A stretch of DNA of 33,520 nt, taken from the NCBI GenBank assembly GCA_947441075.1, contig CANESK010000011.1, positions 1 to 33,520 of the forward strand. Direction: 5' to 3'. Source of the stretch: Verrucomicrobia subdivision 6 bacterium. GTDB taxonomy: Bacteria; Verrucomicrobiota; Verrucomicrobiia; Methylacidiphilales; Verrucolacustridaceae. Positions 6,686-18,722 of this stretch are shown here, in pieces; the stretch's first letter is position 1; the number at the start of each line of letters is the position of its first letter. A program made the position numbers and the translations under genes. Under the pieces are notes generated by a model. It was not told where the DNA came from and did not search any database. It was given only the letters and a program-made list of their open reading frames with translations.

Positions 6686-7048
<363 letters not shown>

Positions 7049-7060
7049 TTAGTTTTTCAA

Positions 7061-7117
7061 GCGTGACGGGTCATGGAAGGTATTGGTCATACCCTGCCAC
7101 CCATCTGCCCGTCACGC
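7061..7117 (-). other. Inverted repeat / hairpin between the two PII genes
   Basis: GCGTGACGGG at 7061-7070 and CCCGTCACGC at 7108-7117 are perfect 10-base inverted repeats. Between them lies a second, smaller inverted repeat, GGTAT with ATACC, around position 7085. In the minus-strand transcript this forms a branched or long hairpin just after PII-b and before the ribosome site of PII-a. It lacks a clean T-run in either direction, so it is not a classical terminator. It may set the relative expression of the downstream genes by partial termination, RNA processing or protection. The inverted repeat is directly visible. The role is inference. Confidence 0.6.
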
Positions 7118-7131
7118 CAGAAATCTTCCTT

Positions 7132-7485
<354 letters not shown>

Positions 7486-7508: not shown

Positions 7509-8978
7509 TCAATAGATGTAGCCCTTTTCTTCGTGATCGTTGATATCCAGACCCTCGCGCTCCGCCTCGGAAGAAGCGCGTAGACCCATGAGCATTTTGA
7601 TGGCGAAGGCGATGACCGCCGTGCCCACAATGGAGAGAACGAGAGTTAAGGCGATGGCCTTGCACTGTTCGGCTACGAGGGTTTTACCTACGATCTCTTT
7701 CAAATTCAGATTTAGGTTCGCGTTGACCTCGGCGGTGGCGAAAACTCCCGTGAGGAATGCGCCCATAGTTCCTCCGATGGCGTGGACGCCGAAGGTGTCG
7801 AGGGCGTCGTCATAGCGGAACCATTTCTTCACTCGGGTACAGAAAAACCAAGGTACTAACCCAGCGGCGACGCCGATGACGATGGAACCTGTGGCATCAA
7901 CAAACCCGGTGGCGGGGGTGATGACGACAAGTCCCGCGACAGCGCCCGAGCAGAAGCCTAGGACGCTTGATTTGCCTTTGTCGAAGTACTCGGCGGTGGC
8001 CCAAACAAAGGCGGCCACTCCAGTAGCGAGGGTGGTGGTCATAAAGGCATTAGCTGCGACGCCGTCTGCGGCGACAGCCGATCCAGCGTTAAATCCGTAC
8101 CAACCAACCCAGAGCATGCCTGTGCCGATCATACAAAGGACCATGCTATGCGGAGGCATCGGTTCTTTGCCGAACCCGAGGCGCTTGCCGAGGATTAAGC
8201 AGAGAATCAGAGCCGACCAACCCGAAGACATGTGCACGACCGTACCTCCTGCGAAGTCGACCGCCTTAATTGCGGCCGTGGCATTCCACACTCCATTCAT
8301 TAATCCATTCACGCCCCAAACCATGTGCGCGAGGGGAAAGTAGACGATAAACATCCATGCCCCGACAAAAAGGACGATGGATGAAAACTTAATTCTTTCC
8401 GCGATCGCCCCGATGATCAGCGCGGGGGTGATGATGGCGAACATCATCTGGTACATGCTAAAAACGTTTTGGGAAACCCAGTAGGCATAGTCGGTGTTGG
8501 GGGCTGAGGTGACTCCCTTCAGAAAGAAAAACTCGGAGCCACCAAGAATTGGGCTGCCGAAACTTTTCCCGAAGACGAGGCTGTAGCCGACTGCCCACCA
8601 GAGGATGGTGACCAGGCCGGTGATGCCGAGGCACTGAGCCATAATCGAGAGGACGTTTTTAGAGCGAACCAACCCTCCATAAAAGAGGGCTAGCCCAGGG
8701 AGAGTCATGAAGAGGACGAGGGCGGCCGAGGTCATCAACCAGGCGTTATGTCCTGGGCCTGCGACGCCAATGGACGCGGTGGTCAACCCTTCAGGAATAT
8801 TTCCTTTTTCATCTTTGAGAGCAGCCGTGGGGTCTCCGTTCCCGAGGTAGGCTTCGAGACCTGCCACTCGCTGTTCGAGGGTTGGGGCGGGCGCATCGGC
8901 CCAAGTTCCTACAACTGACACTCCTAAGACTGCAAGCACCGCCAGAGGGCGCCATCCCAAGATACTTTGTATGATCAT
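7509..8978 (-). CDS. amtB: Ammonium transporter AmtB (canonical twin-His copy)
   Basis: The product is 489 residues with an N-terminal signal sequence (hydrophobic core LAVLAVLGVSVVG, cleavage near ADA). A short periplasmic segment, TLEQRVAGLEAYLGNGDP, follows, then eleven membrane helices. It conducts ammonium across the inner membrane as a trimer. Visible family marks: the GGLVRSKNVLS region, QNVFSMYQMMFAI, DFAGGTVVHMSSG with the first pore His at residue 249, WYGFNAGS, FGVHAIGG with the second pore His, and the C-terminal EREGLDINDHEE that matches the GlnK-contact tail of E. coli AmtB. AAAGGAG precedes the ATG. A sigma-54 promoter lies about 90 bases upstream of the start. It heads the amtB1-glnK-glnB-glnA run. 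Confidence 0.96.
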   Translation of the reverse strand: MIIQSILGWRPLAVLAVLGVSVVGTWADAPAPTLEQRVAGLEAYLGNGDPTAALKDEKGNIPEGLTTASIGVAGPGHNAWLMTSAALVLFMTLPGLALFYGGLVRSKNVLSIMAQCLGITGLVTILWWAVGYSLVFGKSFGSPILGGSEFFFLKGVTSAPNTDYAYWVSQNVFSMYQMMFAIITPALIIGAIAERIKFSSIVLFVGAWMFIVYFPLAHMVWGVNGLMNGVWNATAAIKAVDFAGGTVVHMSSGWSALILCLILGKRLGFGKEPMPPHSMVLCMIGTGMLWVGWYGFNAGSAVAADGVAANAFMTTTLATGVAAFVWATAEYFDKGKSSVLGFCSGAVAGLVVITPATGFVDATGSIVIGVAAGLVPWFFCTRVKKWFRYDDALDTFGVHAIGGTMGAFLTGVFATAEVNANLNLNLKEIVGKTLVAEQCKAIALTLVLSIVGTAVIAFAIKMLMGLRASSEAEREGLDINDHEEKGYIY

Positions 8979-9065
8979 ACTTCTATCTCCTTTGTTTCGT
9001 CTGGTTTCTATCGTCGCAAGGACGGATCTCTGAAGCAGACTTCCTCCAAGAGATCACTTCTTATT

Positions 9066-9083
9066 TAGCAAGCGGCGTGCCAA
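9066..9083 (-). promoter_or_regulatory. Sigma-54 (RpoN) promoter for amtB1-glnK-glnB-glnA
   Basis: On the minus strand the site reads TTGGCACGCCGCTTGCTA, a full match to the RpoN consensus YTGGCACG-N4-TTGCW, with exactly ten bases between the GG and GC elements. The predicted transcript start is near 9056, about 78 bases before the amtB1 ATG. RpoN promoters need an enhancer-binding activator such as NtrC, which fits nitrogen control of the operon. Two imperfect palindromes upstream (9112-9123, and GCCAC/GTGGC at 9153-9179) are possible activator sites, but neither is a clear NtrC box. Confidence 0.85.
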
Positions 9084-9208
9084 GTTCCTTAACTTTTTTA
9101 AATAAATGCAACTCGTTGACGAGCAGGTTCATTTCGGCGGCCGTTTCATGGGGCCACTGCTAGCACTAAGATTTGTGGCTATTTTCCGCCGCAACCGACT
9201 CAAGCGGG

Positions 9209-10669
9209 TTAGTAAATATATCCTTTTTCTTCGTGATCATTCACATCGAGTCCCTCTCGCTCCGCTTCGCTTGAAGGTCGCAAGCCCATCAGATGTTTCA
9301 CGGCCAAGGCCACCACAGTTGTGCCGATCACAGAAAGAAGAAGAGTGATGCCGATTGCTTTGCACTGCTCGACGAGGAGGGTTTTCCCCACGATGTCTTT
9401 TAGATTGAGGTTGAGATTAGGATTCACCTCCGCCGTTGCGAGAATGCCTGTGAGAAAGGCCCCCAGAGTGCCTCCGATCGCATGGACCCCAAATACATCG
9501 AGCGTGTCGTCGTAGCCAAACCACCTCTTCACTCGGGTACAGAAAAACCAAGGCACAAATCCACCTGCGACCCCAAGAAGGACCGCGCCTGTCGCATCGA
9601 CAAATCCAGCGGCGGGGGTGATGGTGACCAGTCCTGCGACGGCGCCAGAGCAGAATCCGAGAACGCTCGCCTTCCCCTTGTCCAAATATTCGGCGATCGC
9701 CCAGACGAAAGAGGCCGCGCTGGCCGCTAGGGTGGTGGTCAGGAATGCGTTGGCGGCAACCCCATCTGCCGCGAGAGCCGACCCGGCGTTGAAGCCGTAC
9801 CATCCCACCCAAAGTAGTCCCGTGCCCACCATACAAAGGACCATGCTGTGCGGCGGCATGGCCTCTTTGTTAAACCCAAGGCGTTTTCCGAGAATGATGC
9901 AGGCCGCTAGTGCCGACCACCCTGAAGCCATTTCCACCACAAATCCCCCAGCAAAATCGATCGAACGTATCCCTGCATTCGGGTTCCAGACTCCATTCAT
10001 CCACCCATTGCTCCCCCAGACCATATGGGCGAGAGGAAAGTAGACGACGAACATCCACGCCCCAGTAAAGAAAAGGACTGCAGAAAATTTCATCCGCTCT
10101 GCCACTGCACCGATTAGGACCACAGGAGTAATAATGGCGAACATTAGCTGGTACACACTAAAGACATTCTGCGAGACCCAATAGGCGTAGGTAGTGTTTG
10201 GCGCCGAAGTGACTCCTTGGAGAAAGGTAAATTCTAACCCCCCTAGAATCGGACTATGTAGGCTTTCCCCGAAGACGAGGCTATACCCTGCCGCCCACCA
10301 AAGAATCGTGACGAGGCCGGTGATCCCAAGACATTGCGCCATGATTGACAGAACGTTTTTTGAGCGAACCAATCCTCCATAAAAAAGCGCCAATCCAGGT
10401 AGAGTCATAAACAAAACCAGCGCAGCGGAAATCATCATCCACGCGTTGTGGCCAGGTCCAGCTATGCCAACGGAGGCGGTCTTAGCCAATACCCCTTGCT
10501 TCCCTTGGCCGTCGCTGAGGGTTGCGGCGGGGTCCCCATTCGTGAGATAAGCTTCCAAACCGGCTACACGCTGCTCAAGGGTCGGGGTGGGCCCCCCTGC
10601 AGAAACAGTCATCGCGGGAGCGAGGCACAAACAGAATGCCAAGACCGATGCCCTTGCCCCAATTTTCAT
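9209..10669 (-). CDS. Ammonium transporter family protein with Glu replacing first pore His
   Basis: The product is 486 residues and a close paralogue of the neighbouring amtB1, with the same signal peptide layout, TLEQRVAGLEAYL segment, eleven-helix core and EREGLDVNDHEEKG tail. The striking change is DFAGGFVVEMASG: residue 246, codon GAA at 9932-9934, is Glu where Amt proteins have the first His of the twin-His pore pair. The second His (FGVHAIGG) is kept. Fungal Mep1/Mep3 transporters also carry Glu here, so a working but kinetically different transporter is plausible; a sensor role is another option. The ATG at 10669 (MKIGARASVLAF) gives a good signal peptide and avoids overlap with tsf, although its ribosome site is weak. 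It lies 50 bases after tsf. Confidence 0.93.
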   Translation of the reverse strand: MKIGARASVLAFCLCLAPAMTVSAGGPTPTLEQRVAGLEAYLTNGDPAATLSDGQGKQGVLAKTASVGIAGPGHNAWMMISAALVLFMTLPGLALFYGGLVRSKNVLSIMAQCLGITGLVTILWWAAGYSLVFGESLHSPILGGLEFTFLQGVTSAPNTTYAYWVSQNVFSVYQLMFAIITPVVLIGAVAERMKFSAVLFFTGAWMFVVYFPLAHMVWGSNGWMNGVWNPNAGIRSIDFAGGFVVEMASGWSALAACIILGKRLGFNKEAMPPHSMVLCMVGTGLLWVGWYGFNAGSALAADGVAANAFLTTTLAASAASFVWAIAEYLDKGKASVLGFCSGAVAGLVTITPAAGFVDATGAVLLGVAGGFVPWFFCTRVKRWFGYDDTLDVFGVHAIGGTLGAFLTGILATAEVNPNLNLNLKDIVGKTLLVEQCKAIGITLLLSVIGTTVVALAVKHLMGLRPSSEAEREGLDVNDHEEKGYIY

Positions 10670-15931: not shown

Positions 15932-17707
15932 CTAGCTTGCAGTAAAGAGTTCTTCGATGGTTTGAAGTTCGGTGTGCTCCGATTGGATCGACCAAAGGCG
16001 GCTGTAAAGGCCGCCTTTTCGGACAAGCTCATCGTGTTTGCCCATTTCAATAATTCGGCCGGCTTCAACGACAGCAATCGCGTCCGCCTTGCGCACGGTG
16101 GAAAGCCGATGGGCCACGACGATGCTAGTTCTCCCTGCCAAAAGATGGTCCAGAGCAAGTTGGATCTGCTTTTCTGTAGCGGTATCGACGCTGGCGGTTG
16201 CCTCATCCAAAACAAGCACCGGCGGATCTTTTAGAAGGGCCCGCGCGATCGAGAGGCGCTGTCGTTCGCCAGCAGAGAGGCGCACCCCGCGTTCCCCAAC
16301 TTTCGAGTCCCATCCATCGGAAAGTAGTCGAACAAAATTTAGAGCACACGCGGCGTGTAGAACCTTCTCGATTTCCTGATCAGTTGCGCCCGGTTTCCCA
16401 AGCTCGAGATTTTCGCGAATGGTGGCCTGAAACAAGAAAGGTTCCTGCGTCACCACCCCAACCTCTCGACGCAACTCATCCAGAGAGATCTGGGGAAGGG
16501 GAGTGCCATCAAGCAGAACCTGCCCTTGGGTGGGATCATGAAATCGAGCCACGAGAGAGGCCAAAGTTGTTTTGCCCGCTCCCGTTGGGCCAACGAGGGC
16601 GAGGGAAGTGCCGGCAGGAATGGTGAGATTGATCCCGTGAAGAACCTCCCGCCCCGTCTTGTAGGAGAAGTGGATGTTTTGGAAAAGAACCTCTCGGGCG
16701 GAACTGCGCCGCGGTGGCAGGTGTCGAAGAGAAGTCGTGGGAAGATGACCCGGCTCAGGCTCAGCATCCAAAATAGAGAACACTCTCTCACCAGCAGCGC
16801 GGCCAGCTTGAATCAACTGGTTTAAGCTATGGAGCCGCCCAACAGGCTCGTAAAACATTCCGACATAAAGAAGAAAGGCGACCAGCTCTCCGACTGCCAT
16901 TTTTCCCTCAAGAACCGACCTTCCACCCACCCAAAGGACGAGGCAGGTTCCGGCAGCGGCAAACCAAGCCATGGCTGGGGAGTAAAAGGCCCAGGCCTTC
17001 ATAATCCCCAAGGAGGCGGTCCGAACATCATGGGCAACCTTTTCAAATCGCCGGGCTCCTTCCTCAAGCCAGCCGTAGGTTTTGATTTGTCTCATTCCTT
17101 GAAGGTGGTCCATCAAGAGGGAGTTCATGGCTGAGGAGGCTTTGCGCTGAACTCGGTAACGCGGGTGGGCAGTCAGAGTGTAGTAAAGCGCGCCTGCCGC
17201 AAGAAAAGGGATAGGGGCGAGAGACCAAGCGGCAAGAATGGGATCGATTCGAAAGAGAATAAATCCGACCCCGAGAAGTTGAAGAATGGCGATGAGCCCC
17301 TGTTCAATGCCATCGATCAGCATCCTCTCCATGTTCATGACATCTTCGCTGACTCGGGTGAGAAGATCCCCGCTCGACCGATGGTCGTACCAAGAGGTGG
17401 AAAGACGCTGGAAAGCAAGATAGAGGTCCCGCCGAAGATCCAGGATGACCTTTTGCTCAAAAAGATTGTTGAGGAGGATTCGCACGGCGTTGAGTCCGTC
17501 GCGCCCAAGAAAAACCAGAAGCAAAAGCCCAACCAGCCAAGGAAGGCGATCCGCTTGGCCCTTAGCAATGACGTCGTCGATCAGAACTCCCGTAAGCCGA
17601 GGATAAACTAGGCCGAGCAGAGTAGAGAGAAGGGCGGCAGTAATCGTGCCAACGGCAAAGCCAGGATATTTGCGAAGGTAAGCAGCAATGCGGAGGGCCG
17701 TAGGCAT
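15932..17707 (-). CDS. ABC exporter, MsbA/multidrug type (half-transporter)
   Basis: The product is 591 residues: an N-terminal six-helix exporter domain (about 1-310) fused to one ATPase domain. It acts as a homodimer or heterodimer in the inner membrane, exporting lipids or hydrophobic compounds. ATPase motifs are complete: Walker A GPTGAGKT at 373-380, signature LSAGERQ at 477-483, Walker B VLVLDE at 497-502, then the H-loop VAHRLSTV. The coupling-helix region GDLLTRVSEDV (about 113-123) is typical of MsbA/LmrA relatives. The ATG at 17707 (MPTALRIAAYLRKYPG) matches the family start and avoids overlap with bioB upstream. Lipid A flippase is possible, but a drug exporter cannot be excluded. 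Confidence 0.93.
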   Translation of the reverse strand: MPTALRIAAYLRKYPGFAVGTITAALLSTLLGLVYPRLTGVLIDDVIAKGQADRLPWLVGLLLLVFLGRDGLNAVRILLNNLFEQKVILDLRRDLYLAFQRLSTSWYDHRSSGDLLTRVSEDVMNMERMLIDGIEQGLIAILQLLGVGFILFRIDPILAAWSLAPIPFLAAGALYYTLTAHPRYRVQRKASSAMNSLLMDHLQGMRQIKTYGWLEEGARRFEKVAHDVRTASLGIMKAWAFYSPAMAWFAAAGTCLVLWVGGRSVLEGKMAVGELVAFLLYVGMFYEPVGRLHSLNQLIQAGRAAGERVFSILDAEPEPGHLPTTSLRHLPPRRSSAREVLFQNIHFSYKTGREVLHGINLTIPAGTSLALVGPTGAGKTTLASLVARFHDPTQGQVLLDGTPLPQISLDELRREVGVVTQEPFLFQATIRENLELGKPGATDQEIEKVLHAACALNFVRLLSDGWDSKVGERGVRLSAGERQRLSIARALLKDPPVLVLDEATASVDTATEKQIQLALDHLLAGRTSIVVAHRLSTVRKADAIAVVEAGRIIEMGKHDELVRKGGLYSRLWSIQSEHTELQTIEELFTAS

Positions 17708-17759
17708 GGAAGTGAAAGAGTAGCCCCAACCGCTCGGGCGGCCAATGGCTGATGAAAAA

Positions 17760-18722
17760 TTAGGAAGCCTGAACCAGGCCCAGAGTCCGCAGAAGGGCGC
17801 GGTCATCCGACTCGTCGGGATTCGGTGCCGTGAGCAACTTATCTCCGAAAAAGATCGAGTTGGCGCCCGCATAAAAACAGAGGGCTTGGGCCTCTCGGCT
17901 TAGGATGGTTCGGCCCGCGCTCAGTCGAACGCGGGCACGGGGCAGGGCGATTCGAGTAGTGGCAATGAGACGGACCAACTCGAAAACGTCGACCGGTTTT
18001 TGGCCGGCGAGGGGAGTGCCCTCTTGCGGCATGAGGCAGTTGATCGGCACGCTTTCGGGTGAAGGATCAAAACCGCAAAGAACCTCGAGCATCTTGAGTC
18101 GATCATCCTCAGCCTCTCCCATTCCAAGAATCGCTCCACAACAGACGGCCATCCCCGCCTTCTGCACAGAGCGGATAGTGCGAAGACGATCTTCGAAAGA
18201 GTGGGTGGTGACGATGTTCCGATAGTGCTCAGGAGAGGTGTCGAGATTGTGGTTATAAGCGGTCACGCCCGCTTCTTTGAGTTGGCGGGCCGCCTCATCG
18301 GTGAGTTGGCCAAGAGTGACACAGACTTCCATGCCGAGCTGCTTGACGTCGCGGACAATATTCAGGACTGACTCAAACTTGGCTTCTCCTTCTTTGACCC
18401 CCTTCCAAGCGGCCCCCATGCAAAAACGGCCTGCGCCAGCTGCTTTGGCCTGCCGCGCTTCCGAAAGGACGTCCTCGCGCTCCATCAATCGCTCAGCTTT
18501 GACTCCGGTATTGTAGCGAGCGCTTTGGGCGCAGTAGCCGCAATCTTCACTGCAGCCGCCTGTTTTGATGCTGAGCAGACGGCAGAGTTGGACTCCTTCT
18601 TTTTCCCCCCAATGCTGGCAATGGACCCTGCGAGACTGATCGAGAAGGGAGAACAGTGGTTGATAATAAATGGGCGAGAGCTGGGCAAATGTTTTGAGAG
18701 TCATTCCGTTGGTGGCAACCAT
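17760..18722 (-). CDS. bioB: Biotin synthase
   Basis: BioB is a radical-SAM enzyme that inserts sulfur into dethiobiotin, the last step of biotin synthesis, using a 4Fe-4S and a sacrificial 2Fe-2S cluster. The product is 320 residues. The radical-SAM cysteines are Cys57, Cys61 and Cys64 in GGCSEDCGYCAQS. The substrate/cluster region VRLSAGRTILS carries the conserved Arg, and GANSIFFGDKLLT lies near the C-terminus. ATG codons at 18722 and 18704 are both possible starts (MVATNG or MTLKTF), neither with a strong ribosome site. No other bio gene is adjacent. It lies 52 bases upstream of the ABC exporter gene. Confidence 0.96.
   Translation of the reverse strand: MVATNGMTLKTFAQLSPIYYQPLFSLLDQSRRVHCQHWGEKEGVQLCRLLSIKTGGCSEDCGYCAQSARYNTGVKAERLMEREDVLSEARQAKAAGAGRFCMGAAWKGVKEGEAKFESVLNIVRDVKQLGMEVCVTLGQLTDEAARQLKEAGVTAYNHNLDTSPEHYRNIVTTHSFEDRLRTIRSVQKAGMAVCCGAILGMGEAEDDRLKMLEVLCGFDPSPESVPINCLMPQEGTPLAGQKPVDVFELVRLIATTRIALPRARVRLSAGRTILSREAQALCFYAGANSIFFGDKLLTAPNPDESDDRALLRTLGLVQAS

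Follow-up and report, generated by a model that had tools for sequence, protein, structure and literature searches.

The glnK-amtB and glnA promoters of enterobacteria are controlled by NtrC and sigma-54, and sigma-54 control of genes encoding ammonium transporters (Amt), P-II proteins and glutamine synthetase (GS) is a classic arrangement, to which the locus described here adds one more confirmed case, from a verrucomicrobial genus. Among riboswitches, preQ1-II forms an H-type pseudoknot whose third loop carries an additional hairpin, located just before the ribosome site. Regarding the RNAs of nitrogen genes, PMC2864571 associates the glnA RNA (glutamine-I) with nitrogen-assimilation genes, including those for P-II, GS and ammonium transporters, and PMC6698751 presents glutamine-II as a pseudoknot near the start codon, thought to act on translation. 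The present locus combines a promoter of the enterobacterial kind with a structured leader RNA; this leader, unremarked in the initial annotation of the DNA, is the less ordinary part of the locus and could provide further control on top of the promoter.

The window, i.e., the whole stretch of DNA that was analysed, comprises 33,520 nucleotides and is contig 11 of a 1.73-Mb assembly (114 contigs, 91% complete; G000 hereafter). The closest named relatives of its amt genes belong to Verrucomicrobia, the nearest being 'subdivision 6' genomes such as BACL9. On the minus strand the gene order is rpsB, tsf, amtB2, amtB1, P-II, P-II, glnA, and the genes that had been called as amt, P-II, P-II and glnA, together with a second amt, stand on the basis of Pfam and TIGR profile matches:

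9209..10669, minus strand: amtB2, second ammonium transporter (PF00909, E 2.2e-105)
7509..8978, minus strand: amtB1, ammonium transporter (PF00909, E 1.2e-106; TIGR00836 over cut-off)
7132..7476, minus strand: P-II protein 1 (PF00543, E 3.6e-34)
6686..7030, minus strand: P-II protein 2 (PF00543, E 8e-33)
5206..about 6639, minus strand: glnA, type I glutamine synthetase (TIGR00653, 657.8 bits; start picked by eye as the ATG after AGGAG)

The tandem P-II genes (window 6686-7476) have products that are nearly identical over residues 1-60. Upstream of amtB1 lie two elements:

9176..9191, minus strand: candidate activator (enhancer) dyad, CGGCGGAAAATAGCCA, core GGC-N8-GCC, centred at about -127 from +1
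9066..9083, minus strand: sigma-54 promoter, with the -24 GG at 9081-9080 and the -12 GC at 9069-9068

Read on the minus strand from 9083 to 9066, the promoter is TTGGCACGCCGCTTGCTA, of the form TTGGCACG-N4-TTGCTA, and it has what defines a sigma-54 site, namely GG and GC with N10 between them and TGGCAYR-N4-TTGCW. The match at every conserved RpoN base, with exact GG-N10-GC spacing, had already been claimed for this site and is confirmed here: the full consensus TTGGCACGNNNNTTGCW occurs once in both strands of the window and in none of 100 dinucleotide shuffles, and the site is the top-scoring one of the window, reaching 52 of a maximum of 52 with our own matrix, built on the RpoN consensus. 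The second-best score, 48, belongs to a sigma-54-like site at 17652-17636 of the minus strand, TTGGCACGATTACTGCC, inside the ORF 15932-17872, which is probably due to chance. A looser pattern with two mismatches was found 10 times against 10.6 expected by chance, so only the full consensus match is informative. In the whole 1.73-Mb assembly TGGCACGNNNNTTGCW has two copies, the other (C33) lying within a 440-codon open frame. The exact spacing places the predicted +1 near 9056, with 78 bases between it and the amtB1 ATG (8978).

Relatives of amtB1 were found in 12 of the 21 genomes of the genus, and in 11 of them the gene is orthologous and has its upstream region. All 11 of these regions carry TTGGCAYG-N4-YTGCT, 102-104 bases before the ATG, with the TTGGCA, G and TGCT columns invariant, and none of the 34 columns immediately upstream is invariant. 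In the twelfth genome, G002, the amtB1 orthologue comes second in the run and has no such site, and promoter, dyad and leader precede a first gene that is a different amt (36% identity). Conservation of the site in relatives, which the initial annotation had proposed as a check, thus holds for 11 of 11 orthologous regions and one non-orthologous amt, with drifting flanks. The control cassette before a different amt, with the usual amt second, is seen both in G002 (L111/L152) and in BACL9 (L054), where the first gene has apparently been replaced or inserted under a kept control cassette; the cassette therefore seems to have been kept with function. By eye, the initial residues of the first-gene amt of G002 are similar to those of amtB1.

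The suggestion that the two transporters are under different control also fits, since the best sites around the amtB2 start score only 32-36 of 52 in four genomes, and likewise at a fifth, partial, locus; upstream of amtB2 in the window no good sigma-54 site was found, the best scoring 32 of 52. Among other verrucomicrobial amt genes, 36 of 98 upstream regions, taken from 80 loci, have sites scoring at least 46 of 52. Within the 21 genus genomes there are 14 exact matches to TGGCACG-N4-TTGCW, four of which are the amtB1 site. Eight of the other ten (L121 and L123 included) lie within long same-strand open frames, one (L113) lies opposite a 389-codon frame, and one (L114) lies in shorter frames, 27 bases before an ORF. 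L121 and L123, in G018 and G019, read TGGCACGTAA(G/A)TTGCA and are located 30 bases before dnaK, with the frame open through the site; a second sigma-54 promoter of the genus is possible there. As for the amtB1 promoter, it is well supported by these comparisons as a real, ordinary promoter of a known kind.

A promoter of this kind requires an activator, and the assembly encodes two proteins of NtrC architecture (receiver, AAA and Fis-type domains; C8 and C66), both with intact AAA domains; these REC-AAA-Fis proteins and the conserved candidate dyad would supply what is required, their pairing being putative. By eye, one of the two activator genes adjoins a histidine kinase gene. With regard to the sigma factor itself, the absence of rpoN from the genome had been named beforehand as a refutation: a profile search with the sigma-54 DNA-binding domain (PF04552) gave no matches in this 91%-complete assembly, and rpoN is present in 16 of the 21 genus genomes. 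Its absence here, and from 5 of the 21 genus genomes, would be expected if sigma-54 had been lost, the promoter being a relic and the operon being transcribed by another factor. This is very unlikely, as the site is undamaged, with no departure from the consensus at any of its positions, and activators with intact AAA domains remain. Moreover, the absence from the assembly is not decisive, because the whole rpoN neighbourhood is missing and 16 genomes of the genus have the gene. The 10-kb rpoN surroundings of G013 find only 25-43-base matches in G000, as expected of a missing contig, the absent stretch including the genes for EPSP synthase and the CCA-adding enzyme. G015, a near relative with 93-97% identity in this region, has its rpoN stretch between contig ends, namely the C42 edge and base 1 of C41. 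We read the absence of rpoN as missing sequence and not as loss, which is not proof.

Regarding the activator site, GGY-N8-RCC followed by A, centred -126 to -131 from the predicted start, occurs in 12 of 12 upstream regions, as GGT...ACC in three genomes and as GGC...GCC in nine, with the symmetry retained. Six of the 11 orthologous regions have, by eye, no amtB2 before the dyad, which is therefore linked to the amtB1 promoter rather than to the amtB2 end. Some upstream regions carry further, non-conserved matches to the loose dyad pattern. The dyad is not tied to a particular activator, because the other sigma-54 matches of the genus genomes yielded scattered matches only. An earlier idea was that two nearby palindromes, which were not specified, may be enhancer sites; the dyad that is conserved is the one at 9176-9191. 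Of the repeats near the promoter, the arms 9018-9031/9049-9062 lie at and after +1 and represent the leader RNA hairpin. The repeat at 9111-9124 of the minus strand, GCTCGTCAACGAGT followed by a T-rich stretch, is terminator-like and comes after amtB2 in this genome; inspection by eye found it not visibly kept as a dyad in relatives.

Downstream of the promoter, the following elements make up the predicted 5' leader:

8976..9056, minus strand: structured 5' leader RNA, from the predicted +1 (9056) to the amtB1 start codon
9025..9055, minus strand: leader hairpin P1, GATCTC/GAGATC and TGGAG/CTTCA
9036..9040, minus strand: GTCTG of the P1 loop, 5' strand of the pseudoknot (comparative pairing)
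9012..9024, minus strand: leader hairpin P2, CGTC/GACG
8999..9003, minus strand: pseudoknot 3' strand CAGAC (comparative pairing)
8987..8993, minus strand: Shine-Dalgarno AAAGGAG, with AGGAGAT as a possible partner of ATCTCTT in the P1 5' strand

From +1 to the ATG, mean identity is 85% over 12 sequences, and the conserved stretch starts at the predicted +1, as expected if this position is right and the constraint is on the RNA. The single leader sequence folds no better than its shuffles (z -0.47, with 53 of 200 shuffles doing as well), and shuffling the tails of 10 sequences yields a pseudoknot complement of at least five bases in 6-52% of cases, so the case for structure is one of comparison. 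Over the alignment, whose rows are related to each other, 96.4% of 220 cells are paired, compared with 33-46% when partners are slid; six pairs have changes in both partners, whereas shuffles average 1.3 such pairs and none of 500 reaches six, and four of the six owe their change to G004, the most divergent row. P1 (11 pairs) has 95.9% of its cells paired and both-side changes in four pairs, and P2 (4 pairs) has 93.2%, with U-A replaced by C-G in two distinct rows. For G004 the alignment of P1 and P2 is imperfect, three of its four P2 pairs being broken as aligned and forming one column away in a constrained fold. All five pseudoknot pairs form in 11 of 11 distinct sequences, one of them changing from G-C to U-A (G004) and another from U-A to U-G (G002). 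CAGAC stands 5-6 bases before AAGGAG in nine of the ten sequences tested, and in G002 the longest match ends four bases before it. A covariance-model alignment, with a model that lacks the pseudoknot, gives the same pairing numbers (the present leader matches 81 of 81 positions with 104.2 bits, its own sequence being in the model), and RNAalifold alone recovers nearly the same two hairpins. The conserved, covarying structure precedes an amt as first gene in 12 of 12 cases, and it is a candidate structured RNA outside Rfam 15.

P1 is also an inverted repeat in the DNA, and the block downstream of +1 could in principle be the operator of a repressor. Such an operator, already disfavoured, is extremely unlikely given that one P1 position most often has U-G (5 of 11), a pair also present at several others, which breaks the DNA symmetry and fits RNA better than a DNA dyad, and that the distant pairs, between the loop and CAGAC, covary. 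A leader peptide was rejected as well, by eye: indels of one base, in the loop of P2 and at other places, shift the TTG-started 14-codon frame of G000 (TTGGAGGAAGTC...TAG) in relatives, and no ribosome site precedes it.

The leader was found in few genomes. It occurs once per genome in 12 of the 21 genomes of the genus, the same 12 in which an Amt family protein was found; the nine others are 63-87% complete, and its absence there may reflect gaps. No credible leader was found in the 41 other genomes of the order (62 searched), nor elsewhere in the samples of the class (384 genomes) and the phylum (387), bearing in mind that the order, class, phylum and amt-locus sets overlap and that the strict search filters lose weak matches. 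Beyond the genus, thresholds were passed only by G053, G112 and G536 (E 0.00175, 6.4e-4 and 2.4e-4 per genome, respectively), all of which we count as chance: the match in G112 lies in a coding stretch and precedes no amt, and those in G053 and G536 come via the Shine-Dalgarno tail, lack the P1 loop and stand before other genes. In addition, of the 80 amt loci from named genomes only L014, L015 and L054 match the leader model, and their leaders are identical to those of G020, G010 and G002, so that they bring no new sequences; among those compared, the leaders of the other verrucomicrobial amt loci are different and many are short. As sigma-54-like sites are frequent at these other amt loci, with other leaders, the comparison indicates that the promoter predates the leader, which was added at the level of the genus.

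Taken together, sequence comparison establishes the promoter, the dyad, the leader structure and their co-conservation. With good confidence we propose that a sigma-54 start, the candidate dyad and a leader acting in cis on amtB1 translation would operate jointly at this locus. We infer that amtB1, the two P-II genes and glnA would be transcribed into a single four-gene mRNA from about 9056, from a sigma-54 promoter needing an enhancer-binding activator, for which the dyad at 9176-9191 is the best candidate site. The transcript would open with a 78-base leader containing P1, P2 and the pseudoknot formed by the P1 loop with CAGAC, which lies six bases before the AAGGAG core. This leader is most likely a cis-acting translational one and its role is likely regulatory, whatever the direction of its effect and the signal it may sense.

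One way in which it could work is a switch: the P1 5' strand would pair either with the P1 3' strand, leaving the Shine-Dalgarno free, or with the Shine-Dalgarno, which would then be blocked; either state would allow the pseudoknot helix. In seven of ten sequences tested, AUCUCUU of the P1 5' strand is complementary to the Shine-Dalgarno AGGAGAU, and in G004 the pairing is CUCCUU/AAGGAG; pairing of at least four was found in neither G012 nor G010, so it is not universal. When the pseudoknot energy is excluded, the folds that free and that pair the Shine-Dalgarno differ by no more than about 1.5 kcal/mol in 8 of 11 sequences, and the blocked fold is favoured by 4.6-6.3 in G005, G004 and G002, the pseudoknot again not being counted. 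In the blocked fold of several sequences, the GTCTG/CAGAC helix persists as an ordinary stem. The switch is a plausible model and not a demonstration. A tentative proposal is that the leader represents a new nitrogen-sensing riboswitch class directly behind a sigma-54 promoter, with the P1 5' strand swapping between P1 and the Shine-Dalgarno and glutamine as a conceivable ligand; the operon would then answer first to the NtrC-type activator and next to its own RNA. Binding of a protein instead of a small ligand, either an operon product in autoregulation or an RNA-binding regulator, is a comparably speculative option; a small, compact leader with one gene context in one genus is as typical there as of riboswitches; against it, none of the four operon genes encodes an RNA-binding protein. 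It may also be, though we doubt it, that the leader is passive, with the 5' hairpin and pseudoknot protecting the mRNA or keeping the ribosome site open and all regulation residing at the promoter. P1 begins at +2, where stabilising 5' hairpins are usually located, and the Shine-Dalgarno is outside the comparative structure; against this, a protective hairpin needs no conserved loop, pseudoknot or second hairpin, and all 12 rows keep the GTCT of the P1 loop unchanged.

If the cis-acting leader does regulate, these genes would come under double control, by an activator and by an RNA, in a clade whose nitrogen control is little known, and the locus would provide a nitrogen-gene leader RNA unrelated to the cyanobacterial glutamine riboswitches, in the form of a compact pseudoknot of about 60 bases that is directly testable for ligand binding. 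If it does not, the promoter stays an ordinary one. In the open-access literature searched, neither this leader nor a riboswitch of verrucomicrobial amt genes was found described, which does not establish that they are absent from print.

At the gathering score, Rfam 15 has no matches in the whole window, and a permissive scan of 301 bases gave two chance-level matches, one of them on promoter letters; the glutamine riboswitches RF01739 and RF01704 do not match at gathering or at E 10. The narK RNA (RF03032) reaches 11.8 bits (E 8.2) against a gathering score of 43.2 and covers the sigma-54 promoter letters only, so its weak likeness is limited to the promoter and the leader itself is unmatched. 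The match of RF03032 to these letters (L094 3039-3070, minus strand) suggests that the 5' part of the narK RNA family is itself a sigma-54 promoter.

With glutamine-I (glnA, RF01739) and glutamine-II (Downstream-peptide, RF01704) the leader shares the association with nitrogen-assimilation genes, and with the latter also a pseudoknot near the start, but sequence and helix order differ, as does the distribution, cyanobacterial and marine in their case and a verrucomicrobial genus in this one. The pseudoknot-plus-hairpin layout is shared with preQ1-II, whereas there is no Rfam sequence match and the genes are unrelated. Other verrucomicrobial amt loci likewise have sigma-54-like sites in common with this locus, but, apart from three, do not match the leader model. 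Finally, the enterobacterial NtrC/sigma-54 promoters of glnK-amtB and glnA have the same -24/-12 elements, a dyad beyond -100, and Amt, P-II and GS as targets. The dyad here differs from the enterobacterial NtrC site, of the GCAC-N7-GTGC type, the activators here are candidates only, and at this locus +1 is followed by a structured leader.
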